Assembly (NCBI RefSeq): GCF_902833145.1
Contig: NZ_CADFEN010000004.1
Location: 248,001-312,000, forward strand
Direction: 5' to 3'
DNA length: 64,000 bases
Source: Burkholderia sp. BCC0506
GTDB lineage: Bacteria; Pseudomonadota; Gammaproteobacteria; Burkholderiales; Burkholderiaceae
Below the pieces are notes generated by a model that ran no database searches, was not told where the DNA came from, and saw only the letters and a program-made list of their open reading frames with translations. The translations under genes were made by a program, and so were the position numbers. Shown in pieces: positions 823 to 16,490 of the stretch. The stretch's first letter is position 1; each line of letters starts with the position of its first letter.

Positions 823-940
823 CGACCGACGGGCACGATGAGCGGCGCTCATGATGGGCTTGCAGTTTATTCATGACGATGACGGCCGAGATGCAATACA
901 TTGTTCGGACCTCGTCGTCGTTTTACTGAAGGAGCGTGCC

Positions 941-1573: not shown

Positions 1574-1591
1574 CGACGGCACCGGGCATCG

Positions 1592-2533: not shown

Positions 2534-2666
2534 GCTTGCTGCCTGTTTCAACATGCCAATTCGATTTCGGACGATTCGGTCGGCTCGCGCGTGTTGTCAT
2601 TGCGAGCGGCGATCCAAAGAGAAAAGCGAAGATTTCGCCGGAGACGCGCATTTTACGAGGGCACAA

Positions 2667-2692
2667 CCGTTCCGGCGATGTAGCCGGAACGG
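2667..2692 (-). terminator. Perfect 10-bp hairpin, possible terminator
   Basis: Arms CCGTTCCGGC and GCCGGAACGG enclose a six-base loop. It lies just after the stop of the broken gene at 2724-3006 on the minus strand and before the yddG-like gene. No clear U-tract follows, so termination is likely weak or factor-assisted. Confidence 0.45.
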
Positions 2693-2723
2693 CGTGTACG
2701 ATCGATTCAGTCGCGCGAACCGA

Positions 2724-3006
2724 TCATGCGCCGTCGATGCGCGACGGTGCGCGGATTTCCGACAGCGCGTGTTCGATCGCGTCGAGCATCGCATTCCGCA
2801 TCGGACCGAGCGTCGTGACAAGGGGGAAACCGGGTGTCGTCGATCGACAGATCGATCAGCGGCCAGCCGCCGGCCGCGTCGCGAATCTCAAGCCGTCGTT
2901 CATGTGGATCGACGTCGATGTCGCCATGTGCTTGTCGCGGCGCATTGGCGATGGCATCGAATGCGTTGGCGGGAGGGAGCGTGTGAAGGCAGTCTTCGAA
3001 ACACAT
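2724..3006 (-). pseudogene. Small hypothetical gene split by a +1 frameshift
   Basis: On the minus strand an ATG at 3006 opens a protein-like frame (MCFEDCLHTLPPANAF, later GGWPLIDLSIDDTRF). Near 2827 the sequence TTTCCCCC is met, and from there the protein-like content continues in the next frame: PLVTTLGPMRNAMLDAIEHA, then SEIRAPSRIDGA and a TGA at 2724-2726. Removing one base in the T3C5 run joins the two parts into about 94 residues. Without the correction the first frame runs into low-complexity Arg/Asp sequence. Family and function are not recognised. No strong ribosome-binding site is seen before 3006. It could be a true pseudogene, a sequencing error in a homopolymer, or two unrelated short frames. 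Confidence 0.5.
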
Positions 3007-3112
3007 CTACGTGGACTGGGGTGCGAGGCGGGCAGTCCAACTCGCGCCGCGCCTCGTATCCGCCGACGGCAACGCATCAGGCGTCCGCCGCAGCGAGCGC
3101 CCGACGGGTCGA

Positions 3113-4798
3113 TCACCGCTCGCGCCGCTTCTTGCTCAGCTCGATCGTCTCGAACAGTTCGTACTGCGCGGTCGGATGCTGGTCGGCGCCCGGCGCATGG
3201 TAGTAGCGCATCGTGATCGTCGTGTGGCCGCCCGGCTTGCCCGGGTCGTGGTCGAACACCGCGATCCCGTAGCCGGTACCCGTATCGCGGCGCGCGGACC
3301 AGATCGCATCCTCGAGCGCATCGGCCGGCTGGCGCACGAACGTGTTCGGTGCGGTGCCCGGCACCGGCCGGTTCGGCTTCGTGAAGACCTTCGCCTGCGC
3401 AAAGCCGGTCGACGGGTTTTCGCCGTACACGTCGAGCGGCGCGCTGGTGCCGCCGCCGCCGAGGATCAGATGGATCGTGCCGTGGCTCGTGTCGAACGTC
3501 GTCCGATTCGGATCGTTCGATCCGACCGGACGCGGCTGCAGCGTCTCGACCACTTCGCCGGTCTTCGCATCGACGCCCGCGCGGTGATTGCAGCCGCGCA
3601 CCGGGTAGCTGCGCTCGTAGTCGTGATCGTGGCCGCACAGCACGAGATCGACGCCGTAACGGTCGAACAGCGGCAGCCATGCTTCGCGAATGCCCTTGTC
3701 GGAACCGTTGCCCGTCTTCGACGAACTGAGTGCATCCTGGTGCATCTGCACGACGATCCAGTCGATGTCGTCGTCATGCGCGGCATGACGCAGCGTGCGT
3801 TCGAGCCAGCGCGTCTGCTCGCCGTTGCTGTAGCCGCGCACGTAGAACGACGTGCCGGGCTCGATCGGCGACCGGCCGGTGCTCGCGGCCGGCACGAGCG
3901 GCGCGGGGCCGCCGACGAACGCGGCGGCATCCTGATAGACGACGTCGTCGGCGTCGAGCGACACGAACAGCACGGAGCTCACGCGGAAGCTGTACCAGCG
4001 GCCCGGGAAGTGCGTGCCGTTCTCCGGCAGCGTATAGCGCGCGAGGTACGAATCGAGCCCCTGCGGACCGTTGTTGAATTCGATCTCGTGATTGCCGGGG
4101 CACGGCATCCACGGGCGATTCGCGGCCGACGTCTGGTTGTTGTTGCCGAAATCGCGCCACACCTCGGGCTGGTGCGCGGGGTTCAGGTTCGCGTAGCAGA
4201 GGTCGCCGTTCAGCAGGTGGAACAGCGGCTGGAACTGTTCGACGGCCTGCACCGCGAAGCGGCTCTGAGGCGACGACAGTACCCACGCGCCGTTCGGCGT
4301 CGCGAGATCGCCGTAGCTCGTGAAACGGAACGGCGCGCGGCCGCGCGGCGCCGTCGAAAAGGATGCGGAGAACGGCTGCGCGGCATTGCTGTCGTTGTCG
4401 GCCGTGATCTCGTAGCGATAGCGCGTATCCGGCTTGAGCCCGTGCACGCGGGCGTGGTACGTGAATACGGTCTCGCCGTTCAGGCCGTCGGTGTACAGGC
4501 GCTGGACGCCGTGCACGGTGCGCGCCGGCTCGCCGTCGGCGACGATGCGCGCGCGCGGATTGACGGCCGGGGCGAGCGACGCCCACGAGATCGCCACTTC
4601 GGACGTCGGGTCGTTGCCCCACGTCAGGTGAACCTGTTCGGGTGTGCCGTCCGGGTTCGACGCGGCGGCGCGGGCGGCCGCGAGCCCGCCGGCGGCGGTG
4701 GCGAGGCCGGAGACGCCGGCGAGTTTCAGGAAGCCGCGACGCGACACGGAGGCGGCCGGCTCGTTCGGCTGGTCGGGGAGAGTGTCCTGGTTCGACAT
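3113..4798 (-). CDS. Tat-exported purple acid phosphatase-like metallophosphoesterase
   Basis: A secreted metallophosphoesterase of 561 residues, expected to release phosphate from phosphomonoesters in the periplasm. The N-terminus carries a twin-arginine signal (SRRGFLKLAGVSG), followed by an Fn3-like purple-acid-phosphatase N-terminal domain (HLTWGNDPTSEVAISW). The catalytic domain shows the metal-ligand blocks in order: SYGDLAT, LNGDLCYAN, MPCPGNHEIEF, VVQMHQDA and LCGHDHDYERSYP. The start ATG 4798 (MSNQDTL) is chosen because the signal peptide begins about 20 residues later; the frame is open further upstream only by G+C bias. It is transcribed away from the sigma-factor cluster. The natural substrate and any phosphate-starvation control are not visible. 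Confidence 0.9.
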   Translation of the reverse strand: MSNQDTLPDQPNEPAASVSRRGFLKLAGVSGLATAAGGLAAARAAASNPDGTPEQVHLTWGNDPTSEVAISWASLAPAVNPRARIVADGEPARTVHGVQRLYTDGLNGETVFTYHARVHGLKPDTRYRYEITADNDSNAAQPFSASFSTAPRGRAPFRFTSYGDLATPNGAWVLSSPQSRFAVQAVEQFQPLFHLLNGDLCYANLNPAHQPEVWRDFGNNNQTSAANRPWMPCPGNHEIEFNNGPQGLDSYLARYTLPENGTHFPGRWYSFRVSSVLFVSLDADDVVYQDAAAFVGGPAPLVPAASTGRSPIEPGTSFYVRGYSNGEQTRWLERTLRHAAHDDDIDWIVVQMHQDALSSSKTGNGSDKGIREAWLPLFDRYGVDLVLCGHDHDYERSYPVRGCNHRAGVDAKTGEVVETLQPRPVGSNDPNRTTFDTSHGTIHLILGGGGTSAPLDVYGENPSTGFAQAKVFTKPNRPVPGTAPNTFVRQPADALEDAIWSARRDTGTGYGIAVFDHDPGKPGGHTTITMRYYHAPGADQHPTAQYELFETIELSKKRRER

Positions 4799-5116
4799 GG
4801 TTCGGTGTTTTCGTTGATGGGGCGCGAGGGGAACCGCGCGGCCATGCGCGAGCACGGCCGGGGCATGGGCCGGAAACGAGCGGGATTCCGGTCGCCTGCA
4901 TTGTCGAAGGGCAGTTTTGCCGCGTTGTGACAGTTCCGCAACCCCGCGCTTGCGGCGGCCGATACGGACGATCGCGTCGCGCGCCACCGGTGCGCTCCGA
5001 CGCAGGGTCGGCCCACCGAAAAATTATTTGCCGATTCCGCGACGGATATGCCGTGCCGGCTCCGTTTAACGCATGAACGACCGCTTCCGGTCGATGCCGT
5101 TATTTCGGAGTCTTTC
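4799..5116. other. Intergenic region, divergent promoters
   Basis: A 318-bp gap between the divergent phosphatase and WxxGHW-repeat genes. It holds the putative ECF promoter at 5024-5072; no other gene was found. Confidence 0.6.
5024..5072 (+). promoter_or_regulatory. Putative ECF sigma-factor promoter, copy A
   Basis: An AT-rich TTATTT is followed by CCGCGACGGAT (5036-5046), a 15-base spacer and CGTTTAAC (5062-5069). The same arrangement recurs before the DUF1800 gene at 11678-11733 with CCGCGACGGAT, 14 bases and CGTTAAAC. The match suggests one sigma factor reads both, most simply the ECF factor encoded at 5866. The assignment of -35 and -10 is inferred; no transcription start is known. 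Confidence 0.45.
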
Positions 5117-5410
5117 ATGAAACTTTCTGTTCCATTGCGATGGGCCGCCGCATGCGTGGCCGCGCTCGCGACGTCCGCCGTATTCGCGCAGGCCGTCATC
5201 GTCGCGCCGTACGCGCCGCCGCCGCCGCGCGTCGAAGTGATGCCGGCACCCCGTGCGGGTTACGTATGGGATCAGGGGCACTGGCACCATGGCCGCTACG
5301 AGTGGATTCCGGGCCACTGGCAGGTCGTGCGCGTCGGTTACCACTGGGTGCCCGGACACTGGGATGCGCGCGGCCCGGCCTGGCGCTGGGTGCCGGGGCA
5401 CTGGGCCTGA
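5117..5410 (+). CDS. Exported WxxGHW (YXWQ-type) repeat protein
   Basis: A small secreted protein of 97 residues, function unknown. A cleavable signal peptide is visible (KLSVPLRWAAACVAALATS to FAQA). The mature part is proline-rich, then has repeats built on W-x-x-G-H-W: YVWDQGHWHHG, YEWIPGHWQV, YHWVPGHWDA and WRWVPGHWA. Such repeats occur in short envelope proteins of Burkholderia and relatives. The ATG at 5117 is used because it begins the signal peptide and follows a purine-rich CGGAG at 5106-5110. It is the first gene of the sigma-factor cluster, behind the putative ECF promoter, and resembles the lipoprotein at 14365. Confidence 0.82.
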   Translation: MKLSVPLRWAAACVAALATSAVFAQAVIVAPYAPPPPRVEVMPAPRAGYVWDQGHWHHGRYEWIPGHWQVVRVGYHWVPGHWDARGPAWRWVPGHWA

Positions 5411-5481
5411 ACATGCACGCCGACGCGCGGCACGCGATGCCGGCGCGGCGGATTGCTCACGCAACATCATGAGTCGAAGCG

Positions 5482-5595
5482 ATGCCTTTTCGAACCGTCG
5501 TGATACTGGCGGCTGCCGCGATCGTGCTGGCCGGCTGCGTCGTGGTGCCGGCCCGTCCGGTGTATTACCGGCCCGCGCCGGTCGTCGTATATTGA
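5482..5595 (+). CDS. 37-residue lipoprotein
   Basis: A very short open frame that reads as a lipoprotein: MPFRTVVILAAAAIVLAGCV gives a hydrophobic signal with the lipobox LAGC, and the mature part is only about 19 residues rich in Val, Pro and Tyr. It lies 71 bp after the WxxGHW protein and before the sigma-factor gene on the same strand, and is likely part of that transcript. GAAG lies a few bases before the ATG. Function unknown; small size lowers certainty, but the signal and lipobox are clean. Confidence 0.6.
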   Translation: MPFRTVVILAAAAIVLAGCVVVPARPVYYRPAPVVVY

Positions 5596-5676
5596 GCGCG
5601 CCGGCCGGCGGTCGCGCGGCCGGCCGACAGGATCGACATGCGGCGCGAACCGGATGCCGATGAAACCGACGCGGCC

Positions 5677-5712
5677 GACGCCGTGTGCGACGCCGTGTGC
5701 GACGCCGTGTGC
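5677..5712 (+). repeat. Three tandem 12-bp repeats
   Basis: The unit GACGCCGTGTGC occurs three times in direct succession upstream of the sigma-factor start. If translated in the sigma-factor frame the copies would encode Ala-Val-Cys-Asp repeats, but the favoured TTG start at 5866 puts them in the leader. Confidence 0.85.
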
Positions 5713-5788
5713 GATGCGCGCGGGGCCGACGTACCGTCGCCATGGCGCCGTCAGGCGATATCCCGACGCATGCAAGGAGAGCACGACG

Positions 5789-5869
5789 ATGAGCTTCAAC
5801 CGGGCGGCGGGTATACCTGTCGCGACAGGGCGGCGCCGGCGCGCCGCGCGACGGAGCAGGCGGCGTTGA
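5789..5869 (+). CDS. Putative leader peptide coupled to the sigma-factor gene
   Basis: A 26-residue frame (MSFNRAAGIPVATG followed by an arginine-rich tail) has a good ribosome-binding site (AAGGAGA at 5774-5780) and ends in TGA at 5867-5869, overlapping the TTG proposed as the sigma-factor start (TTGA). This arrangement would couple sigma-factor translation to translation of the short frame. It has no recognisable domain. It may instead be chance in a G+C-rich stretch. Confidence 0.35.
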   Translation: MSFNRAAGIPVATGRRRRAARRSRRR

Positions 5870-6435
5870 ACGATCGCGGCGACCGCGATCCGGACGCGGA
5901 ACTCGTCGCGCGCGTCGGCGCGCGCGATGCGTCGGCGGTGCGCGTGCTCGTCGCACGCAAGCTGCCGCGGCTGCTCGCATTGGCGACGCGCATGCTCGGC
6001 GACCGGAACGAAGCCGAGGACGTCGCGCAGGAGACGTTCTTGCGAATCTGGAACCACGCGCCGCGCTGGCGCGAAGGCGAAGCGCGCTTCGACACGTGGC
6101 TGCATCGCGTCGTGCTGAACCTGTGCTACGACCGCTTGCGGGGCCGGCGCGAAGAGCCCGTCGATACGCTGCCCGACGTGCCCGACACGCAGCCGGAGCC
6201 GGCCGCGCATGCGGAACTGCGTTCGCGCGACGCGCGCGTGCAGCAGGCGCTGGCCGCGTTGCCGCCGAGGCAGCGGGAAGCGCTGGTGCTCCAGTACTAT
6301 CAGGAAATGTCGAACGTGGAAGCGGCCAACCTGATGGGCATCACCGTCGATGCGCTGGAAAGCCTGCTCGCCCGTGCGCGGCGCAACCTGCGCGCGCAAC
6401 TGGCCGGCGACCCACCTAGCGAGGACAAGCGATGA
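5866..6435 (+). CDS. ECF-type RNA polymerase sigma factor
   Basis: An extracytoplasmic-function sigma factor of 189 residues. Region 2 is visible as LPRLLALATRMLGDRNEAED and FLRIWNHAPRWREG; region 4 as ALAALPPRQREALVLQYYQE with the helix-turn-helix NLMGITVDALESLLARARRN. TTG 5866 is preferred: GGAG lies 10 bases before it and it begins just ahead of the conserved part. An ATG at 5770 or further upstream in frame is possible but would add a tail without conserved sequence. The stop overlaps the next gene by four bases (ATGA), so the putative anti-sigma factor is co-translated. The probable targets are this cluster and the DUF1800 operon. Confidence 0.9.
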   Translation: MNDRGDRDPDAELVARVGARDASAVRVLVARKLPRLLALATRMLGDRNEAEDVAQETFLRIWNHAPRWREGEARFDTWLHRVVLNLCYDRLRGRREEPVDTLPDVPDTQPEPAAHAELRSRDARVQQALAALPPRQREALVLQYYQEMSNVEAANLMGITVDALESLLARARRNLRAQLAGDPPSEDKR

Positions 6436-6851
6436 CACCCGAACGATTCCGCACCATCGTCGCCGCGTACGGCTCGGACGCGCGGCGCTGGCCGCAAGCC
6501 GAACGCGCGGCGGCCGAAGCGTGGGCCCAAGCGCATCCGCGCGACGCGCTGGAAGCGCTCGACGCCGCCGCCGAGCTCGATGCGTGGCTGATGCAGGACA
6601 CGGTCGCGCCGCCCGCGCCGGCGCTGGTCGAGCGCATCGTCGCGACGGCGCCGGCGCCGCAACGCGCGCGACGCCGCGGCAGCGTGTGGTGGTCGGGCGC
6701 CGCGTTCGCGGGCGTCGGGCTGGCCGGCGCGCTCGCGGGCGCGGTGGCCGTGTCGATGCTGATGCTCGGTAGCGCACCGATCGCGCAACACGAACTGGGC
6801 TACCTGACGACGACGTTCGGTGGCCCGAGCATCGACGGAGCCGATGAATGA
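6432..6851 (+). CDS. Putative anti-sigma factor, single-pass membrane protein
   Basis: A 139-residue protein coupled to the sigma-factor gene through an ATGA overlap. The N-terminal half is cytoplasmic and helical (PERFRTIVAAYGSDARRWPQ, typical of short proteins next to ECF factors); one membrane segment follows (GAAFAGVGLAGALAGAVAVS), then a short periplasmic tail. Position and topology suggest it holds the sigma factor at the membrane. No zinc-binding HxxxCxxC motif is seen, so it is not a classical ZAS anti-sigma factor. The next gene overlaps it by four bases as well. Confidence 0.72.
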   Translation: MTPERFRTIVAAYGSDARRWPQAERAAAEAWAQAHPRDALEALDAAAELDAWLMQDTVAPPAPALVERIVATAPAPQRARRRGSVWWSGAAFAGVGLAGALAGAVAVSMLMLGSAPIAQHELGYLTTTFGGPSIDGADE

Positions 6852-7342
6852 GCGAACGCAGCTGGAAATTCATTCTCGTCGGCTCGGTCGTGCTGAACGT
6901 GTTCATGCTCGGCGCGATCGGCGGCGGCGCGTATCAGTGGTTCGCCACGCATCGCGACGAGCATGCGGCCGGCGGCTCCGCTCAGCGCACGGCCCTGCGT
7001 TTCGCCGCGGACGAATTACCCGATGCGCGTCAGCGGGCGTTCGTGGCGGCGCTGAAGGCGGCGCGCAAGGACGGCCGGGATTTCGCGCGGGAAGGGCGTG
7101 ACGGACGGATCACGGTGCTGGATCTGCTGGCCGCGCCGCAACTCGATCGTGCGGCGATCGACGCAGCGCTCGATCGTACGCGGGCCGCCGATAGCGCGTT
7201 GCGTGCGCAGGTCGAGCGCAGTGTCGTCGATTTCGCGGCGACGCTGACCGCGGACGAGCGCGCGAAGTTCGTCGACGGATTGCGGCGCAGCGGGAACTGG
7301 CGGTTACCGGCGAAGAAGCGGGGCGCACCGGAGAGCCCGTAA
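6848..7342 (+). CDS. Periplasmic heavy-metal-sensor-like protein (Spy/CpxP-like)
   Basis: A 164-residue membrane-anchored protein with one N-terminal segment (FILVGSVVLNVFMLGAIGGG) and a helical periplasmic domain: LPDARQRAFVAALKAARKDG, later LDRAAIDAALDRTRAADSAL and AATLTADERAKFVDGL. This matches the metal-resistance / LTXXQ-like fold of the periplasmic sensor family. It starts within the previous gene (ATGA), so sigma factor, anti-sigma factor and this protein form one translational unit. It may sense envelope or metal stress and act on the anti-sigma factor; this is inferred from context. No His or Met cluster for metal binding stands out. Confidence 0.75.
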   Translation: MSERSWKFILVGSVVLNVFMLGAIGGGAYQWFATHRDEHAAGGSAQRTALRFAADELPDARQRAFVAALKAARKDGRDFAREGRDGRITVLDLLAAPQLDRAAIDAALDRTRAADSALRAQVERSVVDFAATLTADERAKFVDGLRRSGNWRLPAKKRGAPESP

Positions 7343-7345
7343 TCG

Positions 7346-10300
7346 TCATCGCGAATCGGCGTTGCGACAGGCGTCGCCGCATGCGAGGCCTTCGTTGCCG
7401 ACGCTGTTGTCGACGCGACTCGCGGTTGCCGTCTTGCCGATTCCAGGCGCGGACGCGTCGGCCGGAAAATGCGCGCGTCGTGCTGCCAGCGCCCGATCGA
7501 AGCCGGGTGTCGTCCGGGCGAGATCCAGCCAGTTCCGCAGGTAGGGCGAGTCCGGCGGATCGTATCGCACGTGCGACAACACCATCGCCGCCGCTGCGTT
7601 GTCGCCGACCGCGCGCACCAGGGTCTCCGGTGCGACGACATGGGCTGCATCGAGCACGGTGCGCGTCGCGCCGCCGTCCTTCGTGCGAATGCTGGCCGGC
7701 GGGCGGGTAAAGACGTAGTCGGCCGAAGCCGGCTGCCATCGGAGCGGCGCGAGCCAGTGCGGCGGCGGCGCGGATGCGCTGCCGTAGGCGGCCGTCCAGA
7801 GACGCAGCGGCGCGGCGGCGGCGACGGTGTAGACGAACCGCGCATGCCGAAAACCGACTGGCGCATCGAACGATTCGATCGGCTCGCCATCGGCAGTCGT
7901 GCTGACGATACGGATATCGCGGCCGCCGTGAACGATCACATCGGCCGACGCACCCGGTTGCAGCTGGACGCGCCGTCCGTCGATCGTCGCGGACACGGGG
8001 CGCGCGAGACCGTTGTACACGGAAACGGTGACGCGGCCTTGCATCCAGCCGAACACGAGCACGGATCCCACGATTCCGAGCGCCACGGCCGCGCGCGCCA
8101 TCCCGGGAAGCACGCCGCTGGCCGTGCTGAAGCGCTCGCGGAAGGTCGGCTTGTCGACGTGCAGCACGCGCTCCGTGCCGACGACCAGCGTGTCGTACGC
8201 GGCCGGAACGGTTGGCGCCGGCGGCGCATCCGTCGCCGGTGCGCCGGAACTCGCATGGGCGGCGACGATCGCTTCCGCGCGCAGCAGTTCGTCGAGCGTC
8301 GCGCGGCGCAACGCGGAAAGGTGACCGGTCACATGCTGGACCCAACCGCCGACGGCACGCAGCCAGCCGTCTATGTTGTTTCGAACCGGCTCGGCGAGCG
8401 CGAACTGCGCCAGCGCGCCGGGCCAATTGTCGATGTCGAGCGCGGCCAGCACGGGCGCGCCAGGGCGCACGTCCTCCGCATGCTGGAAGACTTGTGCCAA
8501 TGCCCGCTGCAACTGCTCGGCCGCGCGGACGATATGGCCGATGCCGTGCTCGGTGATCGTCCCGCCTGCCGTGGCCCGCTGCCGCCACAGCGACAGATGC
8601 GCGTGAGCGTCGCGCACATTCGCTTCGGTGTGCTCCGCATAGTGAAGCAAGCGCAGCAAGCCTTCGAGATAGGCCCGCCATGCTGGCGACAGCGTGTCGG
8701 CGGCGGCCAGATGGGCGCTGCGTACCGCCTTCAGCACCGCCTGCAGGCGGCCGCGAGCGGCGGATCGCTCGGCATCGACGGCGTCGATCGCGCCGGGCAA
8801 CTCGGCGCGCCGGAGTATCCGGCCGCGGTGGCGGATGACCCCGTCGATCGCTTGATAGCGCCCGTCGCGCAGCGAGCACAGCAGCGCATGCTCGCGATCG
8901 AGCTTGCGCAGCCGCTCGAGATCGTGGCCGATGGCCGCCGGGTACAGCGTGTCGATATCGAGCGAACCGCCGTGCGCGACCGGCTCGGTCAACGACTGCG
9001 CGGACCGCGCGTGCCGGGTGGCCGGCAAACCCATGTAGATGCCGCGATATTGCGGCCCGAGATGTTCCTGCACGAAATGTTCGTCGAGTTGCCGCAGCGA
9101 AACGTCGGGGTCCACCGGCGTGTATCCGGTGTCGCCGATCAGCGTGGCCGTCAGGTGTTCGCGCAGGCTGGGCGCGTCGTCGAACAGCAGCCACGCGCTG
9201 CGCTCGTCGGCGGTCGCGGCGAGATACGTGCGCTTCGCGTTTTCCTCGCGTTCGTGATTTTGCGGATGCGTGGCCCACATGCGCGGCGGCTGCGCGATTT
9301 CCCGGTCGAACACGCGGAACGCGCCGGCTGCGTCCGCCGGCACCTGCGGGCGTTGGCCGTAGGCCGGATCGTTGTAGATGCGACCGAGGCGATCGGCAAA
9401 AGCCTGATGCACGACGAATGCATCGCGCGGCGGCCGGCCGTTGGCGACTTCGCTGCGCAGCAGGCCCAACGTGCGGTCCCATGCGTCGTCTGCAATCTGC
9501 AACCGGTGCAACGCATGCACGATGGCATCGCTGCCGGTCAGCGACACGGCGACCAAGTCGGCTTGCATTTCCATTTCGCGCGACAGCGCACGTTGTGCGA
9601 GGACGACGAGGCGGAATGCTATGTCGATGATCGATCGCAATGCCCAGACGGCGAGGCCGAGCAGCCAGCCGATCCACGAGATGCGCACGTCCAGGTTCGA
9701 CAGGCGGTGCAGAAGGCGGTCGAGCAGGTCGCGCTGCGCGACGATATGAACGGCGATCTGCTGCGCCGTGTAGACCCATCGGCCCAGCGCCATCGACCGC
9801 TGCGCGAAATGACCGAACTCATGCGCGCACACCGCCTTGAATTCGGTGAGGTTGAGCATGTTGACGAGCGCGAGCCCGATCTCCAGATGCTTGTGCGAGG
9901 GCCGAACCAGATTCAGCAGCGACAGGTCGTAGAAGACGGCCGCATTGACTCGCGCACTGACGAACACCTTGTTCGGGCGCGGCGCGCCGGCGTCGTCGGC
10001 GATACGTTCGAGGAACGCGAACAGTCGCGGCTGCTGCGCGCGCGTCAATTCAACGCGGTCCGCACGCTCGTCTTTCCGGACGAAGAAGAGCGCCTTGGCC
10101 AGGAATGCCGCCAGGAACAGGCTACCGCCGCACGCGAGCCATTCGGGCAACCCGGCCGACCCGCCATCCAGCGCGAGCCGCAATGCACCGGTGATTGCCG
10201 AGAACGCGAACCAGCCGGTCAGCGCGAGATACAGCAGGATGAACAGCACGAGGCCCGTAACCGCCAGCCACACGTTGCGGCGATACGCGCGGCTCGCGCG

Positions 10301-10351
10301 CGTGAGTCCGGCCGGCACGTCGCGCGGCCCGGCGGGGTAAATGGTGACCAT
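7346..10351 (-). CDS. Large membrane-bound M48-family metallopeptidase
   Basis: An integral-membrane zinc peptidase of 1001 residues, far longer than HtpX (about 290). After two N-terminal membrane segments (NVWLAVTGLVLFILLYLALT; LFLAAFLAKALFFVRKD) the M48 domain shows the zinc motif HEFGH at residues 177-181 (KAVCAHEFGHFAQRS) and the downstream glutamate region (REMEMQADLVAVSLTG). The middle is helical, with a repeated four-helix look and no known catalytic motif. A further membrane segment (MARAAVALGIVGSVLVFGWM) precedes a C-terminal periplasmic or cytoplasmic beta-rich part. ATG 10351 (MVTIYPAG) is preferred since upstream in-frame sequence is not protein-like. It is divergent from the zinc-ribbon gene. 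The substrate is unknown; envelope quality control is a reasonable guess. Confidence 0.83.
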   Translation of the reverse strand: MVTIYPAGPRDVPAGLTRASRAYRRNVWLAVTGLVLFILLYLALTGWFAFSAITGALRLALDGGSAGLPEWLACGGSLFLAAFLAKALFFVRKDERADRVELTRAQQPRLFAFLERIADDAGAPRPNKVFVSARVNAAVFYDLSLLNLVRPSHKHLEIGLALVNMLNLTEFKAVCAHEFGHFAQRSMALGRWVYTAQQIAVHIVAQRDLLDRLLHRLSNLDVRISWIGWLLGLAVWALRSIIDIAFRLVVLAQRALSREMEMQADLVAVSLTGSDAIVHALHRLQIADDAWDRTLGLLRSEVANGRPPRDAFVVHQAFADRLGRIYNDPAYGQRPQVPADAAGAFRVFDREIAQPPRMWATHPQNHEREENAKRTYLAATADERSAWLLFDDAPSLREHLTATLIGDTGYTPVDPDVSLRQLDEHFVQEHLGPQYRGIYMGLPATRHARSAQSLTEPVAHGGSLDIDTLYPAAIGHDLERLRKLDREHALLCSLRDGRYQAIDGVIRHRGRILRRAELPGAIDAVDAERSAARGRLQAVLKAVRSAHLAAADTLSPAWRAYLEGLLRLLHYAEHTEANVRDAHAHLSLWRQRATAGGTITEHGIGHIVRAAEQLQRALAQVFQHAEDVRPGAPVLAALDIDNWPGALAQFALAEPVRNNIDGWLRAVGGWVQHVTGHLSALRRATLDELLRAEAIVAAHASSGAPATDAPPAPTVPAAYDTLVVGTERVLHVDKPTFRERFSTASGVLPGMARAAVALGIVGSVLVFGWMQGRVTVSVYNGLARPVSATIDGRRVQLQPGASADVIVHGGRDIRIVSTTADGEPIESFDAPVGFRHARFVYTVAAAAPLRLWTAAYGSASAPPPHWLAPLRWQPASADYVFTRPPASIRTKDGGATRTVLDAAHVVAPETLVRAVGDNAAAAMVLSHVRYDPPDSPYLRNWLDLARTTPGFDRALAARRAHFPADASAPGIGKTATASRVDNSVGNEGLACGDACRNADSR

Positions 10352-10653
10352 CGTGTTATCGACCCATGAGCGTAAGCCGCGCGTCTGTCGCGCGATCAGG
10401 ACATCGGAATGTGACAGCCGATCGATCGTGCCGGCGTATCGCTTCCTGGAACCGCGTTGCCATCGAAGGCGGGATGAAAACCGGATGAAAGCATTCGCAT
10501 CGTGTTGCGTATTCGACATTCCCCGACCGACAAAATCGCCACCCATCGGAAAAAAGATCAGGCAGAATAAGCCGCCGTGTCGTTTCGGACTGGCAAACAA
10601 ATATCAATGAAACGTGCATGCCGGGGCGTATCCCCGGAATCCGGGGGAATACC
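10352..10653. other. Intergenic region between divergent genes
   Basis: About 300 bp between the M48 peptidase gene and the zinc-ribbon gene. It must hold both promoters. Locally AT-richer stretches occur at 10550-10612. No gene was recognised. Confidence 0.5.
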
Positions 10654-11448
10654 ATGTTCGTCTTCTGGGGGCGGAAGTTAGTCTATCGCAAGCAGGGCTA
10701 CGTAGCGGACTTCTGTCCGATCTGCCGAACGCCGCGTACGTTCGAATTGCAGCGGGTCGGTTCCGCCGGCCATGTCTACAACATCTCGGTCGGGGAAGGG
10801 CGGCTGGTCGGATATCAGCGAACTTGCCAGACTTGCCGAACGCCGGTCAAGAGCGAGCTGTCCACCTATGCGAGCGTGTCGCCGAAGCCCGCGCCGCTGC
10901 CGGAACTGACCGCGCAGACCTTTCCCAATCTGGAATCGGCATGGCGAGACCGGCTCGTGCTCGAGGAGCGGGTTCGCACCGCGCTCCCGTCGCTGCAGCC
11001 CGACGAGCGACAGGCGCTGATTCGCGATCCGTTCGTGGTGCTGTCGACGAAGGTCGAGCGTTATTTCGCGTCGAGCCGCATCAACTGGCGGGACATACTC
11101 GCGATCTTCGTCGCCTTCGCCGTCGCGATCATCGGGTCGGTGACGGTGGGCATGATCGCACCGGGCGCGACGACCTACGGCATCTATTTCTTCATCGCGC
11201 TCGGCGTGTTGATCGTCGTCAGGCAAATCAAGGCGACGGGGCGTCGCTACATGGTCAAGCAGATTGTCCCGCCCCTCGCGTCCGCGCTTGCGCCATTGCA
11301 GCCGACCCGGGAGGAAATCGATTCCGCGTTTCGCGAACTGCGTCTTTCGCAGCCGCGGATAGCCGGCAAGCTGCCGATGGAAGCGTTGCTGTCGAAGCTG
11401 TCCGGCAAGGATGTTGCGGGCCTTGGCGATGCGGGTGCCGCACGCTGA
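10654..11448 (+). CDS. Zinc-ribbon membrane protein, unknown function
   Basis: A 264-residue protein with two CxxC pairs at its start (DFCPICRTPRTF and RTCQTCRTPVK), which would form a zinc ribbon, then a soluble helical stretch (PNLESAWRDRLVLEERVRTA) and two membrane segments (ILAIFVAFAVAIIGSVTVGM; YGIYFFIALGVLIVVRQ). A charged C-terminal tail follows. ATG 10654 (MFVFWGRK) comes after a run of G bases that serves as ribosome-binding site. It is transcribed divergently from the M48 peptidase, so the two may share control. No named family was recognised. Confidence 0.72.
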   Translation: MFVFWGRKLVYRKQGYVADFCPICRTPRTFELQRVGSAGHVYNISVGEGRLVGYQRTCQTCRTPVKSELSTYASVSPKPAPLPELTAQTFPNLESAWRDRLVLEERVRTALPSLQPDERQALIRDPFVVLSTKVERYFASSRINWRDILAIFVAFAVAIIGSVTVGMIAPGATTYGIYFFIALGVLIVVRQIKATGRRYMVKQIVPPLASALAPLQPTREEIDSAFRELRLSQPRIAGKLPMEALLSKLSGKDVAGLGDAGAAR

Positions 11449-11750
11449 GGTAACCGTACGCGCCGGACGGCGGCCCGGCCGATCAGCCGTGCAACGGTGG
11501 GCGTGATGGACGTCGAACCTGAAACGGCAGACGGAACGACATCGGCATCGCGACGGAGGATCGCGACATCGTGCTTCGCGATCGTCGGGAACAGGCGCGC
11601 TGCGTCGTCGGGCGAATGGCCGCGAGCGATTGAAAGCAAAAAGCAAGCGATGCGGTTCCCCGGCCGAGAAACATAAATATTTCGCAGTCCCGCGACGGAT
11701 TTTCCGGCGCCGCTCGTTAAACACGGGTACGCACCGCGAGAACTCTCGTC
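11449..11750. other. Intergenic region before the DUF1800 operon
   Basis: About 300 bp. The last 75 bases hold the putative ECF promoter; the rest shows no gene that can be supported. Confidence 0.5.
11678..11733 (+). promoter_or_regulatory. Putative ECF sigma-factor promoter, copy B
   Basis: AAATATTTCGC is followed by CCGCGACGGAT (11690-11700), a 14-base spacer and CGTTAAAC (11715-11722), about 30 bases before the DUF1800 start. The arrangement matches the element before the WxxGHW gene at 5117. In a window of this base composition an identical 11-base block at the same distance from an AT-rich upstream stretch and a CGTTnAAC box is unlikely by chance. The polymerase form is inferred. Confidence 0.45.
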
Positions 11751-13145
11751 ATGGACCACCCGAACGACATCTCACCGGCCGCGATCGCGCTGAACCGCTT
11801 CGGTCTCGGTGCGCGCGCCGACGAAGCCCCGCCCGCCGATCCGAAGGCCGCGTTGCTCGCGCAGTTCGACCGCTACGACGCACGGCCTGCCGCATGGGCC
11901 GGCGAGCCGGACGCGGTCACGCTCGCCACGCGCTTCGCGAATACCCGCAACGCGATGACGAGCGACGACGCGGCCGCGAAGCGCGCGACCGGGCAATCGA
12001 TCCGGCGCGACGGCTACGACGCGTATCGCAGCGCCGTCACCGCGCGCATGAACAGCGCGCTGACGACGCCCGCGCCGTTCATCGAGCGTCTCGTGCATTT
12101 CTGGGCGAATCATTTCGCGGTATCGGTCGACAAGGGCCAGGTGGCCGCGTACGCGGGCGCATTCGAACGCGACGCGATCCGCCCGCACGTGCTCGGCCGG
12201 TTCGAGGACATGCTCGTCGCCGTCGAGCAGCATCCCGCGATGCAGGTGTTCCTCGACCAGGCGCGCTCGGTTGGCCCCGACAGCCCGGCCGCGCTGCGTG
12301 CGCAGGCACGCAATCCGTCGGCGAAGCGCGGGCTCAACGAGAACCTCGCTCGCGAGATCATGGAACTGCATACGCTCGGCGTGCGCACCGGTTACACGCA
12401 AGCCGACGTGACGGAATTCGCGCGCGCGCTGACCGGCTGGAGCATCGCCGGCGGGCGCGGCCCGCAGCCGGGCGATGCGGCGCCCGGCGCCTTCGTGTTT
12501 CGGCCGAATCTGCACGAGCCGGGCACGCGCACGGTGATGGGGCGCACCTACGATCAGCCGGGCGAAGTGCAGGCGCGCGCGATTTTGCACGACCTCGCGC
12601 GATCGGAGGCGACGGGCCGGCACATCGCGTTCCAGCTCGCCCGCCATTTCGTTGCCGACAACCCGCCGCCCGCGCTGACCGACCGGCTCGCGCGCGCCTT
12701 CGATGCGAGCGGCGGCGACCTGCCGACCGTCTATCGCGCGCTCGTCGATGCGCCGGAAGCATGGTCCGCCGTCAACCGCAAGTTCAAGACGCCGTGGGAG
12801 TGGGCCGTATCGTCGCTGCGCGGGCTCGGCTGGCGCGACACCGGCGATCTCAAGGCCGCGCCGCTGCTCGCGCAGCTCGGCCAGCCGGTGTGGCGGCCGG
12901 GCTCGCCGGCCGGCTACGACGACGTCGCCGCGAGCTGGGCCGCGCCCGACGCGCTCGTGCGCCGCGTCGAGATTGCGCAGCGTCTGGCCGCGCGCACCGG
13001 CGACCGGCTCGATCCGCGCACGCTCGGCGACACGCTGCTCGCCGGTTCGATGAGCGTGCCGACCGCGCTCGCGCTCGCGCGCGCCGAAAGCGCGACGACG
13101 TCGCTCGCGCTGCTGCTCGTATCGCCCGATTTCCAACGGAGATGA
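11751..13145 (+). CDS. DUF1800 family protein
   Basis: A 464-residue protein of the DUF1800 family, of unknown biochemical role; family members are nearly always encoded beside a DUF1501 protein, as here. Visible marks are AAIALNRFGLGARADE at the start, FIERLVHFWANHFAVS, and the block LNENLAREIMELHTLGVRTG with YTQADVTEFARALTGW, which is highly conserved. No signal peptide is evident. ATG 11751 is the first in frame after the putative ECF promoter. The stop overlaps the next gene's start region (ATGA), so the two are translated together. Confidence 0.88.
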   Translation: MDHPNDISPAAIALNRFGLGARADEAPPADPKAALLAQFDRYDARPAAWAGEPDAVTLATRFANTRNAMTSDDAAAKRATGQSIRRDGYDAYRSAVTARMNSALTTPAPFIERLVHFWANHFAVSVDKGQVAAYAGAFERDAIRPHVLGRFEDMLVAVEQHPAMQVFLDQARSVGPDSPAALRAQARNPSAKRGLNENLAREIMELHTLGVRTGYTQADVTEFARALTGWSIAGGRGPQPGDAAPGAFVFRPNLHEPGTRTVMGRTYDQPGEVQARAILHDLARSEATGRHIAFQLARHFVADNPPPALTDRLARAFDASGGDLPTVYRALVDAPEAWSAVNRKFKTPWEWAVSSLRGLGWRDTGDLKAAPLLAQLGQPVWRPGSPAGYDDVAASWAAPDALVRRVEIAQRLAARTGDRLDPRTLGDTLLAGSMSVPTALALARAESATTSLALLLVSPDFQRR

Positions 13146-13147
13146 CC

Positions 13148-14305
13148 ATGGCACTGTCCCGTCGACAATTCCTCAGCGTTGCCGCCGCCGGCGCGGGCGC
13201 GATCCTCGTCGCCCCGCGTATCGCGTTCGCGAATGTCGAGACCGACCGGCGCTTCGTGTTCGTGATCCAGCGCGGCGCGGCCGACGGCCTGAACATCGTC
13301 GTCCCGTATGCGGAGCCCGCGTACGCGTCGCTGCGCGGGCCGCTCGCGATCGACGCGGCGGCCGCGACGCGCCTCGACGGCACGTTCGCGCTGCATCCGT
13401 CGCTCGCGCAAACCGCGCAGATGTACCGCGACGGTCAGGCGCTGTTCGTCCATGCGATCGCGTCGCCGTATCGCGACCGCTCGCATTTCGACGGCCAGAA
13501 CGTGCTCGAAACGGGCGGTCGTGCGCCGTACCAGGTCAAGGACGGCTGGCTGAACCGGCTCGCCGCGCTGCTGCCGGCGACGCGCGACAGCGCAATCGCG
13601 TTCGCGCCGACCGTGCCGCTCGCGCTGCGCGGCACCGTGCAGGCCGCGTCGTATGCGCCGTCCGGTTTGCCGGCCGCGCCGGACGATCTGCTCACCCGCG
13701 TGTCGGCGCTCTACGAAGCCGACGCGCAGCTCGGCCCGCTGTGGCAATCCGCGATGGAAGCACGCGGTCTCGCCGGCGATGCGCACGCGCGGCAGGATCC
13801 GGCCGGCGTCGGCAAGCTCGCCGCGACGTTTCTCGCGCGCGACGACGGCCCACGGATCGCGATGATCGAGACGGGCGGCTGGGATACCCACAGTGCGCAG
13901 AACGCGCGGCTCGCGAATCAGCTGAAGGCGCTCGACACGATGCTCGCCGCGCTGCGCGACGGTCTCGGGCCCGCATGGCAGCAGACCACGGTGCTGGTCG
14001 CGACCGAGTTTGGCCGTACGGCCGCGGTGAACGGCACCGGCGGCACCGATCACGGGCAGGCGTCGGTCGCGATGCTCGCGGGCGGCGCGGTTGCAGGCGG
14101 GCGCGTGATTGCCGATTGGCCGGGGCTGCGGCCCGGCGACCTGTATGAAGGGCGCGACCTGAAGCCGACCGCGTCGCTCGACGCGCTGATCGCGGGCGCG
14201 GCCGCCGACAGCCTGCGGCTCGATCCGCGCCGCACCGCGTCCGTGTTGTTCGCGGAAAGCGGGCCGACGCAGCCGATGAGCGGCCTGATTCACGGGGTCG
14301 CGTGA
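13148..14305 (+). CDS. DUF1501 family Tat-exported protein
   Basis: A 385-residue exported protein of the DUF1501 family, related in fold to sulfatases and alkaline phosphatases. It begins with a twin-arginine signal (LSRRQFLSVAAAGAGAILVA, cut near AFA). Family blocks visible are RRFVFVIQRGAADGLNIVVP, PSLAQTAQMYRDGQALFVHA, IETGGWDTHSAQN and VATEFGRTAAVNGTGGTDHG. Two starts are possible: ATG 13142 overlapping the DUF1800 stop, and ATG 13148, which sits better behind GGAG and is used here. Substrate and partner are unknown; the DUF1800 partner is likely to act with it. Confidence 0.88.
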   Translation: MALSRRQFLSVAAAGAGAILVAPRIAFANVETDRRFVFVIQRGAADGLNIVVPYAEPAYASLRGPLAIDAAAATRLDGTFALHPSLAQTAQMYRDGQALFVHAIASPYRDRSHFDGQNVLETGGRAPYQVKDGWLNRLAALLPATRDSAIAFAPTVPLALRGTVQAASYAPSGLPAAPDDLLTRVSALYEADAQLGPLWQSAMEARGLAGDAHARQDPAGVGKLAATFLARDDGPRIAMIETGGWDTHSAQNARLANQLKALDTMLAALRDGLGPAWQQTTVLVATEFGRTAAVNGTGGTDHGQASVAMLAGGAVAGGRVIADWPGLRPGDLYEGRDLKPTASLDALIAGAAADSLRLDPRRTASVLFAESGPTQPMSGLIHGVA

Positions 14306-14364
14306 CGCGGTGCCAGAGCCGCGACGGGGGCCGTCAACCGATTACACGACAGGGAGAATCGACG

Positions 14365-14583
14365 ATGAAAATCCGGTCCGTTTCGCTCGCCGTACTGGTG
14401 AGCGCGAGTGCGGTGCTGATGTCCGCCTGCGTGGTCGAGCCCGTGCGGCCGCCGCAACCCGCGCCGGTCGTCGAGGTCGCGCCGCCACCGCCAGCTCCCG
14501 GCTATCGCTGGGCGAAGGGGCATTACCGGTGGGCCGGCAATCACTGGGCGTGGGTGCCGGGGCATTGGGTGGCGGTGTACTGA
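14365..14583 (+). CDS. Small lipoprotein with WxxGHW repeats
   Basis: A 72-residue lipoprotein: signal KIRSVSLAVLVSASAVLMSA followed by the lipobox cysteine (MSAC), a proline/valine-rich linker, then YRWAKGHYRWAG and HWAWVPGHWVAVY, the same repeat family as the protein at 5117. AGGGAGA at 14351-14357 gives a clear start at 14365. It follows the DUF1501 gene by 59 bp and is probably in the same transcript. It may bind envelope components; function is unknown. The shared repeat and the shared promoter-like element are what tie this operon to the sigma-factor cluster. Confidence 0.78.
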   Translation: MKIRSVSLAVLVSASAVLMSACVVEPVRPPQPAPVVEVAPPPPAPGYRWAKGHYRWAGNHWAWVPGHWVAVY

Positions 14584-14610
14584 CCGTGCACGATGCGCCG
14601 CGCGGCGCGC

Positions 14611-15804
14611 CTACCACCCGATCCGGTGTTTCTCCTCCGTCTCGCGATGCCGCCAGTCGTCGTCCGCATGAAGATACTGGCTCGTCGTCGTGAGCGATAC
14701 ATGGCCGAGGTTGTCGCGCACGAGCCGCAGGTCGACGCGGCCGTCGGCCATGTGCGAGCCCGCACTGTGGCGCAGCCAGTGCGCGGACGCCTGTTCGAGC
14801 ACGCGCGCCGCCTGCTCGCCGGCTTCGCCGTTCGCGCGCAGCCGGTCGGCCGCGTGCCGGAACACCTGCTTCACGATGCGGTGCAGCGCGGCGCGCGTGA
14901 GCGGCTTGCGCGTCTGGCCGACCGGCAGCACGAGCGGCGTCGGCTCGCCGTCGAACGGTAGCGCGGGCAGGCCGTGCGCGCGCCGGTAGCGCGACAGCTC
15001 GGCCATCATCTCGTCGGTGGCCGGCACGAGCCGCTGCCGGCCGCCTTTGCCCGTCACGTCGAGCCACCAGCGCTCGTGCCCGTTCGCATCGCGCCGGCAG
15101 AAGAATTGTCCCATCGTCGTATCGGCTGCTTCGGTGATGCGCAGCCCGCCGAGATACAGCAGCGTGAACAGCCAGCGCGCGCGATCCGCATGGAAGCACG
15201 CGCGGGCATCGTCGCGCGGCATCGCGGCGATTGCGTCCTTCACCGATTGCCACAGCGGCTGCCCGAGATGGCGCGTGACACGCGGCGCGGGCCGTCGCTG
15301 CCGCTGTCGCGACAGCGCGAGCGGGTTGCCGGCCAGATAGCCGGCCTGCACGAGCCACGAGAACATCACGTTCAGGATCACCAGCGCCTGCCGCTGGCTG
15401 GCTGCCGACAGCGGCCCGTAAAACGGCCGCCAGCGCGGATCGTCGCGCGGATGCTTGCGGCCGCCGTTCGCGCACCACAGCTCGGCCGGCGTCGGCGCGA
15501 GCAGGAATTGCCGGTACACGACGAGATCCTCGTGCGTGAGCGACGACAGCGGCTTGCCGCACGCGATCACGGCCCACAGCAGCAGGCGCTCGGCTTCCTT
15601 GCGGTAGTTCTGGAACGTGGTCGGCGTATCGACGAAGCGGGCGAGCCACGCGCGCACGGCGTCGAGGTCGTTGGTCGCGGCGATCTGCGGATGCGCGCTG
15701 CCCGAGCGGTTGGTGCCCGTGCGTCCATCGAGCGCGGCCGGCACGACGAGCGTATCGATCGGCAGCGGGCGCAGCGCGGTGTCGGACGAAGCGGATGAGG
15801 TCAT
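14611..15804 (-). CDS. Tyrosine site-specific recombinase (phage-integrase family)
   Basis: A 397-residue tyrosine recombinase. A SAM-like core-binding domain is visible at the start (VRAWLARFVDTPTTFQNYRK) and the catalytic domain after about residue 180, with the active-site arginine in LLYLGGLRITEA, the HxxR block in ASAHWLRHSAGSH, the second histidine in VRDNLGHVSLTTTSQYLH and its tyrosine. All expected catalytic residues are present. The start at ATG 15804 (MTSSASSD) is uncertain because no good ribosome-binding site is seen. No attachment-site repeat, cargo or other phage genes flank it, so it is likely a resident recombinase; many Burkholderia carry such a lone integrase of unknown target. 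It ends convergently with the small lipoprotein gene. Confidence 0.85.
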   Translation of the reverse strand: MTSSASSDTALRPLPIDTLVVPAALDGRTGTNRSGSAHPQIAATNDLDAVRAWLARFVDTPTTFQNYRKEAERLLLWAVIACGKPLSSLTHEDLVVYRQFLLAPTPAELWCANGGRKHPRDDPRWRPFYGPLSAASQRQALVILNVMFSWLVQAGYLAGNPLALSRQRQRRPAPRVTRHLGQPLWQSVKDAIAAMPRDDARACFHADRARWLFTLLYLGGLRITEAADTTMGQFFCRRDANGHERWWLDVTGKGGRQRLVPATDEMMAELSRYRRAHGLPALPFDGEPTPLVLPVGQTRKPLTRAALHRIVKQVFRHAADRLRANGEAGEQAARVLEQASAHWLRHSAGSHMADGRVDLRLVRDNLGHVSLTTTSQYLHADDDWRHRETEEKHRIGW

Positions 15805-15899
15805 GCGGAGGAAACGCGCCGCGTAGGCCGCACGGCGCGTGGCCGGGCGGATGAAGGCAGCGCGCCAAAGCGTATCGGGAAGCATCGATGGTACACGAT

Positions 15900-15978
15900 G
15901 ACCACACGGTGAAGCGGCCGTCGGCGGCGATAGCCTGTCCGCTGACGAAGCGCGCGGTGAAATCGGAGCACGCTAACG
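15900..15978 (-). pseudogene. Remnant of a short-chain dehydrogenase C-terminus
   Basis: On the minus strand this stretch encodes ACSDFTARFVSGQAIAADGR, then FTVW. This is the C-terminal signature of classical short-chain dehydrogenases (S-D-x-A-x-F-V-x-G-Q-x-I-x-x-D-G-G-F-T-x-W). No Rossmann N-terminus or catalytic Tyr-x-x-x-Lys is found upstream, and there is no stop where the family usually ends. It appears to be the surviving end of a deleted gene, next to the recombinase. Confidence 0.5.
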
Positions 15979-16041
15979 TAGCGGCTCGCGTGCGACATCC
16001 GATGAGTGAGCGTGGTCGATCGCGTTCTGTAAGGTATTCGT

Positions 16042-16069
16042 GAACTTTCTCGCGAGGCGGTTCGTCTAA
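16042..16069 (+). promoter_or_regulatory. Sigma-E-type promoter before the DUF4377 gene
   Basis: GAACTT (16042-16047), a 16-base spacer and GTCTAA (16064-16069) match the RpoE consensus GGAACTT-N15/16-GTCnAA closely; the base before GAACTT is T rather than G. It lies about 30 bases before the start of an envelope lipoprotein gene, the expected type of target. Confidence 0.6.
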
Positions 16070-16100
16070 TCGGCCCTCCAACGCCCTAGAGGAACATCGC

Positions 16101-16481
16101 ATGATTCGCACGTCCCGAACGCTGCTTGGCGTGGCCGTCATCGCCGGCAGCATGCTCGTCGCCGGATGCCAGACCGACACGGCGGCCACTGGGCCGCAGG
16201 CGGCCCGCCCGACCGACGGCAAGCCCGTGACCAAGACCGTCTACGTCGCGCCACAGTCCGCGCGCTGCACGGGTGTCGCGCCGATGGAGTGCCTGCAGGT
16301 GCGCAGCAGCCCGAGTGAGCCGTGGAGCCTGTGGTACGCGGGAATCGCGGGGTTCGCGTACCAGCCCGGCTACCTGTACACGCTCGAAGTCGACGAGTAT
16401 CGTGTCGCGCAGCCGCCGGCCGACGGTTCGTCGATCCGCTGGGTGCTCAAGCGCATCGTCGAACGCCGCCAGGTGAACTGA
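16101..16481 (+). CDS. DUF4377 lipoprotein
   Basis: A 126-residue lipoprotein: the signal TLLGVAVIAGSMLVAG ends in the lipobox cysteine (VAGC). The mature part has the DUF4377 pattern: CTGVAPMECLQVRSS, PWSLWYAGIAGFAYQPGY and YTLEVDEYRVAQPP, ending in WVLKRIVERR. Family members sit in the outer membrane or periplasm and are often attached to META/HslJ-like proteins; the role is unclear. A ribosome-binding site (AGAGGAA) precedes ATG 16101. Its promoter looks sigma-E-dependent, so it is likely part of the envelope-stress response. It ends 9 bp from the convergent MFS gene. Confidence 0.85.
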   Translation: MIRTSRTLLGVAVIAGSMLVAGCQTDTAATGPQAARPTDGKPVTKTVYVAPQSARCTGVAPMECLQVRSSPSEPWSLWYAGIAGFAYQPGYLYTLEVDEYRVAQPPADGSSIRWVLKRIVERRQVN

Positions 16482-16490
16482 CGCCCGCGA

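Follow-up and report, generated by a model that had tools for sequence, protein, structure and literature searches.

The CnrYXH system of Cupriavidus metallidurans consists of an extracytoplasmic function (ECF) sigma factor, a small membrane anti-sigma factor and a periplasmic sensor of the Metal_resist family, CnrX, which has conserved His, Met and Cys metal ligands. What is likely the same three-component gene set is found in Burkholderia sp. BCC0506, in the window analysed here (64,000 nucleotides (nt) of contig NZ_CADFEN010000004.1, of which positions 1–18000 were covered), although the gene order is unlike that of CnrYXH and the sensor is without conserved residues of the metal-ligand type. 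The sigma operon and an operon for a DUF1800 and a DUF1501 protein are both located on the forward strand, each preceded by the same bipartite block. We propose, with a probability of roughly 0.88, an autoregulated ECF sigma regulon at this locus, in which a sigma factor of the PRK05602 type would act on both operons via the motif CGACGGAT-N14/15-CGTTNAA.

This sigma factor very probably corresponds to EcfH (BCAM1661) from Burkholderia cenocepacia, which was named from strain J2315 in 2007 and is listed there with unknown physiological role (Menard et al., PMC2194791). The assignment is based on length and species distribution. By its coordinates ecfH measures 786 nt, that is 261 amino acids (aa) plus a stop codon (PMC2194791), and at locus L211, from B. 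cenocepacia, the longest ATG-initiated open reading frame (ORF) likewise has 261 aa. The distribution table of the survey lists ecfH as present in B. ambifaria and B. xenovorans and absent from B. mallei, B. pseudomallei and B. thailandensis, in agreement with the sigma factor described here; the source is inconsistent on B. ambifaria, where section 15 of its text has the gene absent. Homologues of EcfH are given as mainly alphaproteobacterial plus one from Pseudomonas, and ecfH as lost in deletions of 9 and 12 kb, about the size of both operons here (PMC2194791). The available portion of the survey gives no promoter, targets, anti-sigma factor or DUF1800/DUF1501 link for EcfH, and in the open-licence literature searched BCAM1661 was found only there.

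The rpoE8 operon of Azospirillum brasilense is of similar make-up: it is tricistronic, encoding the sigma factor, a hypothetical protein and a "periplasmic heavy metal sensor" (PMC12826043). RpoE8 activates the promoter of its own operon in a two-plasmid test in E. coli, so operons of such make-up can be autoregulated. The likeness is one of gene content; the rpoE8 operon is also driven by RpoE6, and WxxGHW or DUF1800/DUF1501 targets are not mentioned in the text available (PMC12826043). The consensus of EcfF and EcfQ from Bradyrhizobium japonicum, GTAAC-N14-15-CG, is unlike the motif found here (PMC3420878). DUF1800 and DUF1501 are, by their Pfam names, families of unknown function; in the accessible parts of two articles they occur as annotation entries with no regulator named (PMC6653060, PMC4982196), while WXXGXW is merely named among modelled repeat families in what is accessible of another (PMC8078820). 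No description of the promoter motif or of DUF1800/DUF1501 regulation was found in the open-licence literature searched. A CGACGGAT string in PMC11976125, an article also containing the term "sigma factor", was set aside, as it is part of primers.

A bipartite motif shared by two operons

The window has two matches to the pattern CCGCGACGGAT-N14/15-CGTTNAAC and no more: one before the cluster starting at 5117 (spacer 15 nt) and one before the operon starting at 11751 (spacer 14 nt), the two places given in the preliminary description. The pattern is absent from 100 dinucleotide shuffles. The same two matches are the only ones in the whole 7.29-Mb genome, in which the reversed control pattern has none. 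From the first base of CGACGG to the ATG there are 77 nt for the gene at 5117 and 58 nt for the gene at 11751. CGACGG and CGTT are 16–17 nt apart, which is usual for the -35 and -10 elements of ECF promoters. Upstream of both putative promoters there is an AT-rich tract, directly so at promoter 1. A further candidate, CGACGGGCCGATGTCG...CGTTGAA, present in this genome (C8) and three others, was dropped; in this genome it lies within an ORF on the opposite strand.

Conservation was analysed in two sets of sequences. The family set contains 200 genomes, 56 of them with a sigma orthologue (at least about 60% identity); seven genomes with matches of only 37–39% were scored as sigma-less. The other set consists of 80 named loci, the best 80 of 179 from a separate search with the sigma sequence, spanning Burkholderia, Paraburkholderia, Trinickia, a metagenome-assembled genome of Pandoraea, Pseudomonas and Phyllobacterium; it shares species with the family set, and the two are not independent. 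In the family set, the first pattern used, CGACGGAT-N13-16-CGTT, was found before the sigma operon in 37 of 56 cases and before DUF1800 in 39 of 54. The later, loosened CGACGGRN-N14/15-CGTTNA was found in 50 of 56 and 50 of 54, respectively (both in 45), with one match elsewhere in the 587,042 bases of the 56 sigma-bearing pieces, counting both strands. Enrichment before orthologous operons had been chosen beforehand as the test on which the proposal could fail, and the outcome favours the proposal. For the named loci the pattern was CGACGGR-N15/16-CGTTNA: 76 of 80 have it before the sigma operon, all 67 DUF1800 genes are preceded by it, and it is found elsewhere only once in 1,606,535 bases on both strands.

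The conservation of position at a fixed spacing is directly observed: the spacer is 14 or 15 nt at every on-locus site, with 13–16 and 12–17 permitted in the searches, and the distance from the site to the start of the DUF1800 match is about 26–52 nt in 36 of 39 cases. The spacer and flanks are only 34–50% identical in pairwise comparison; the blocks are near-invariant, partly by construction. An orthologous DUF1501 gene was matched in 55 of the 56 sigma-positive genomes (G167 has no match), usually a few kb from the sigma gene.

The co-occurrence of motif and sigma gene is likewise a direct observation, made with the strict pattern CGACGGATT-N13/14-CGTTNAA. This has 91 matches in the 200 family genomes, versus one for the reversed pattern; 87 are from sigma-positive genomes (67 on-locus and 20 off-locus) and four from sigma-negative ones. 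Counted by genome, a match is present in 46 of the 56 with sigma and in 4 of the 144 without (Fisher p about 1e-30, ignoring phylogeny), and within the genus of the window in 15 of 15 versus 1 of 8, the last one inside a coding sequence. Three of the four sigma-negative matches are within coding sequences and one precedes a WX2-like lipoprotein gene (G185, locus L382). The G185 assembly measures 3.5 Mb, and no sigma orthologue was found in it; it may be incomplete or may have lost the sigma gene. One motif is present before the sigma operon and the putative target operons and tracks the sigma gene, as expected of an autoregulated regulon.

Two groups of DUF1800-DUF1501 genes served as controls. 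Orthologues from five sigma-less genomes have the site in 0 of 5 cases (G016, G160, G190, G015 and G068; in G068 DUF1501 is matched only in part). Paralogous pairs from the same genera belong to the same two families, with DUF1800 upstream of DUF1501 in 16 of 20 loci, but none of these 20, fetched from a longer list of low-identity matches, has the motif before the pair; DUF1800-DUF1501 pairs in general were accordingly rejected as targets. The sole match in a paralogue locus (L327, Paraburkholderia fungorum), a CGACGGAA variant located between the two genes, was treated as chance.

Probable further targets and other lineages

A third good site in the genome of the window is located at position 30078 of contig 21, 66 nt before the gene of an exported alpha/beta-hydrolase-like protein (weak similarity to Abhydrolase_6, E 1.2e-4, under the cut-off), which is likely a third target and would make the regulon larger than previously described. 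Of the 23 genomes from the genus, nine have this gene; each of the nine is sigma-positive and carries the site. Homologues from four Paraburkholderia-type genomes have it 59–63 nt before the start, and across the clades the distance is 56–66 nt despite an identity of only about 45–49% between them. Of the 20 off-locus strict matches in sigma-positive genomes, 17 precede genes of four families: 12 hydrolases, two response regulators, two PF00144 proteins and one hisC. The other three are without a clear downstream gene (L337 and L341) or within a coding sequence (L345).

Outside Burkholderia, candidate targets are an OmpR-type response regulator (four genomes), hisC (three genomes) and PF00144 proteins (two). 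The response regulator sites are from Paraburkholderia fungorum, Trinickia terrae, G164 and G051 (L320, L323, L334 and L342), and hint at a two-component branch of the regulon. The hisC sites are 115–121 nt upstream in three Paraburkholderia-type genomes (gene starts L321:3431, L322:3392 and L340:3329), an odd gene for an envelope regulon; hisC and the two PF00144 proteins are candidates only.

In the 11 named Pseudomonas loci, DUF1800 and DUF1501 were not found on either strand of the 15–20 kb examined. The site is present before WX1-sigma in 11 of 11, divergently upstream in 10 of 11 and, with a WX2-like ORF next, behind the sensor gene in 8 of 11. In each of three Pseudomonas genomes the looser pattern CGACGGR-N15/16-CGTTNAA has three sites in all, every one at the sigma locus. 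At L276, the only Pseudomonas locus read closely, the divergent site precedes the gene of a Cys-lipoprotein of about 48 aa, small like the putative lipoprotein encoded between WX1 and sigma in the window. Another place with the site was noticed in one Pseudomonas genome (L325:2166), perhaps a duplicated module; it has a small Cys-lipoprotein rich in Tyr and, divergently, an ORF with a WX1-like start.

Sites before sigma and behind the sensor gene are also found in Phyllobacterium (2 of 2 loci) and in a genus outside the class of the window, from the same phylum (6 of 6; L190–L194 and L196); in 7 of these 8 loci DUF1800 follows the sensor-side site. Among 14 other PRK05602 loci, the site precedes sigma in two (L187 and L199) and is not found in 12. 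In Burkholderiaceae, DUF1800-DUF1501 is placed between the second promoter and WX2. Since Pseudomonas retains sites before WxxGHW genes in loci without DUF1800 and DUF1501, the WxxGHW and lipoprotein genes look like the core, most widely shared output, and DUF1800/DUF1501 like an added one.

Genes of the locus

The features of the two operons are collected in Table 1. The sigma ORF ending at 6435 contains Sigma70_r2 (E 2.9e-20) and Sigma70_r4_2 (E 1.8e-14) domains (Pfam), which place it in the ECF group (group 4), and scores 336.9 bits with PRK05602 (NF004113), above the curated cut-off of 208. The preliminary description had rightly called a sigma gene but started it at 5866; this TTG is one of several possible starts, and the longest ORF, of 265 aa, begins with an ATG further upstream. 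Absent from that description were the 139-aa protein with one predicted transmembrane segment and the Metal_resist protein, which matches PF13801 with an E-value of 6.6e-30 and belongs to the Metal_resist/CnrX family. As these two follow the sigma gene, the operon is likely one of sigma, anti-sigma and sensor; the gene of the 139-aa protein also sits after sigma in other loci fetched.

Table 1. Coordinates of putative promoters and genes in the window.
Feature	Position	Strand	Description
Putative promoter 1	5037..5070	+	-35 CGACGGAT 5040-5047; 15-nt spacer; -10 CGTTTAAC 5063-5070
WX1	5117..5410	+	97 aa, exported, four WxxGHW-type repeats, PF12779; leads sigma operon
Putative lipoprotein	5482..5595	+	37 aa; lipobox by eye; no Pfam match
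ECF sigma factor	5638..6435	+	NCBIfam PRK05602 (NF004113); conserved from about 5866 onward; uncertain start codon
Putative anti-sigma factor	6432..6851	+	139 aa; one transmembrane segment (by eye); conserved N-terminus MTPERF...YG...WP...ER
Metal_resist protein	6848..7342	+	164 aa; PF13801; membrane-anchored, putative periplasmic sensor
Putative promoter 2	11690..11722	+	-35 CGACGGAT 11693-11700; 14-nt spacer; -10 CGTTAAAC 11715-11722
DUF1800 protein	11751..13145	+	PF08811; no signal peptide seen
DUF1501 protein	13148..14305	+	PF07394; twin-arginine-type N-terminus SRRQFLS
WX2	14365..14583	+	72-aa putative lipoprotein, WxxGHW repeats, PF12779; closes DUF1800-DUF1501 operon

The small WxxGHW-repeat proteins previously noticed in both units are members of the Pfam family WXXGXW (PF12779), with E-values of 3.7e-12 for WX1 and 1.1e-6 for WX2, both above the cut-off; the BcpO lipoprotein of contact-dependent inhibition (CDI) systems (NF037971) was rejected as an assignment, with 26.5 and 31.9 bits against a cut-off of 80. 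Of the 80 named loci, 68 have a WX1-like ORF upstream of sigma; DUF1501 is followed within 0.9 kb by a WX2-like ORF in 38 of 67 cases, so the WxxGHW link is frequent but not universal.

From the sensor stop to the second site there are 4,350 nt in the window, holding (at 7346–11448) an M48-peptidase gene of up to 1084 aa on the reverse strand and a 276-aa ORF without a Pfam match. Among the 47 named loci with numbers above L226, mostly from Paraburkholderia and Trinickia, the corresponding distance is 7–85 nt in 40; in 20 Burkholderia loci it is 157–3495 nt. The window therefore has the compact double operon in split form, and this made the clusters appear separate. Beyond WX2, a tyrosine recombinase gene on the reverse strand (14611–15885; PF00589, E 4.8e-17) ends 27 nt away, and a small DUF4377 protein is encoded at 16101–16481 (PF14302, E 9.6e-28). 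Upstream of the sigma operon lies a divergent purple-acid-phosphatase/metallophosphatase gene (3113–4798; PF16656 and PF00149), without a site on its own side.

By eye, the DUF1501 orthologues have a twin-arginine-type start in 24 of 24 cases and the DUF1800 orthologues a signal in 0 of 24. For DUF1501 the structural model is of poor quality (pLDDT 62.9) and its fold resembles the alkaline-phosphatase superfamily, the source of the best PDB matches, only weakly (best E 1e-3, TM-score about 0.3); the 50 matches listed are sulfatases, EptC, YejM/PbgA, NPPs and similar proteins. Several enzymes of this superfamily act on envelope polymers or lipids. The DUF1800 model (pLDDT 73.0, mostly helical) has no PDB match at E <= 0.001, and no function is therefore claimed for this protein.

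Proposed regulation and possible role of the regulon

We infer from the comparisons that the sigma factor reads the motif. The 139-aa protein would act as its anti-sigma factor: the order of the genes and their families suggest a membrane-bound anti-sigma factor that has a partner in the periplasm. An envelope signal would act on the Metal_resist/CpxP-like periplasmic protein, upon which the one-segment anti-sigma protein would release sigma. Freed sigma would increase expression of the sigma operon and of several proteins that are exported or anchored by lipid. Promoter 2 would drive DUF1800, DUF1501 and WX2, and another promoter elsewhere in the genome the exported alpha/beta-hydrolase-like protein. 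The output would presumably remodel or protect the envelope. That the sensor perceives envelope damage in a CpxP/Spy-like manner is a guess.

Several observations weigh against the proposed regulon. The pattern was loosened to CGACGGR after variants had been seen, and even so no site was detected before the sigma operon in 6 of 56 and before DUF1800 in 4 of 54 family pieces; 10 of the 56 sigma-positive genomes are without any strict match. The looser CGACGGR-N15/16-CGTTNAA has 53 matches in 14 genomes versus 21 for its reversed control, and four versus three in the genome of the window. As it is unspecific genome-wide, off-locus matches count only where they are conserved. Two second copies of the hydrolase gene (42% identical) have no site, and neither have most of the remoter PRK05602 sigma factors examined (families f81, f92 and others), which means that recognition varies within the family. 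The 139-aa protein belongs to no Pfam family, and the sequence search gave no solved anti-sigma relative. Co-occurrence is partly common descent, given that sigma and targets are linked, and the off-locus hydrolase and the sigma-less loci answer this objection only in part.

Descent could be the whole explanation, the sites being kept as part of a linked gene block with no regulatory tie between the operons. The operons do adjoin in nearly all loci, most of them closely as described above, but this reading is very improbable in view of near-invariant blocks set in divergent spacers and flanks, the five DUF1800 loci that have neither sigma nor site, and the sites upstream of unlinked hydrolase genes. 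The motif might instead be the operator of another regulator, such as a response regulator or a repressor, rather than a promoter of the sigma factor here, and a response regulator gene does bear the site in four Paraburkholderia/Trinickia-type genomes. We consider this unlikely: the two blocks are not palindromic, resemble -35 and -10 elements in their spacing of 14 or 15 nt and in their distance to the DUF1800 starts, and track the sigma gene across 200 genomes, and the three Pseudomonas genomes in which all three looser-pattern sites are at the sigma locus have sigma too.

A CnrYXH-like system, with the Metal_resist protein sensing a transition metal and a regulon for metal resistance, has somewhat better, though still low, odds. 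The PF13801 match and the sigma/anti-sigma/sensor gene set speak for it, as does the match of the sigma factor to CnrH among solved ECF factors (4cxf, E 1.9e-13), although several other ECF factors match better. However, 28 residues are conserved in at least 93% of 57 sensor sequences, and there is no His, Cys or Met among them. A metal signal is thus not favoured, and the Pfam name taken by itself was rejected as an argument for metal sensing; nor was a metal transporter seen among the predicted targets.

The autoregulated regulon remains the preferred reading. Control by one sigma factor of its own cluster and of the DUF1800/DUF1501 system, as first suggested, is supported by comparative genomics (76/80 and 67/67 sites, 0/5 sigma-less orthologues, 46/56 versus 4/144 genomes), amended in two respects: at least one further target is probable in this genome, and only this orthologue group of DUF1800-DUF1501 is included. 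Far more tentative is a wider picture, which we think possible but doubtful: an undescribed pathway of sigma, anti-sigma and CpxP-like sensor in Burkholderiaceae, Pseudomonas and some Alphaproteobacteria might build an envelope-protection coat, with WxxGHW proteins and small lipoproteins as its core. In Burkholderiaceae it would add DUF1501 (exported by the twin-arginine pathway and alkaline-phosphatase-like), DUF1800 and the exported hydrolase, which would alter or degrade a polymer or lipid of the envelope; DUF1800, having no signal of its own, could be exported as partner of DUF1501.

With the proposed regulon, the orphan sigma factor EcfH would gain a promoter consensus and a set of targets. 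For the conserved DUF1800-DUF1501 pair, a link to a sigma factor that already has a name, and to a defined promoter, would give a direct handle on function, and WxxGHW proteins are suggested to be the most widely shared output of EcfH-type sigma factors.

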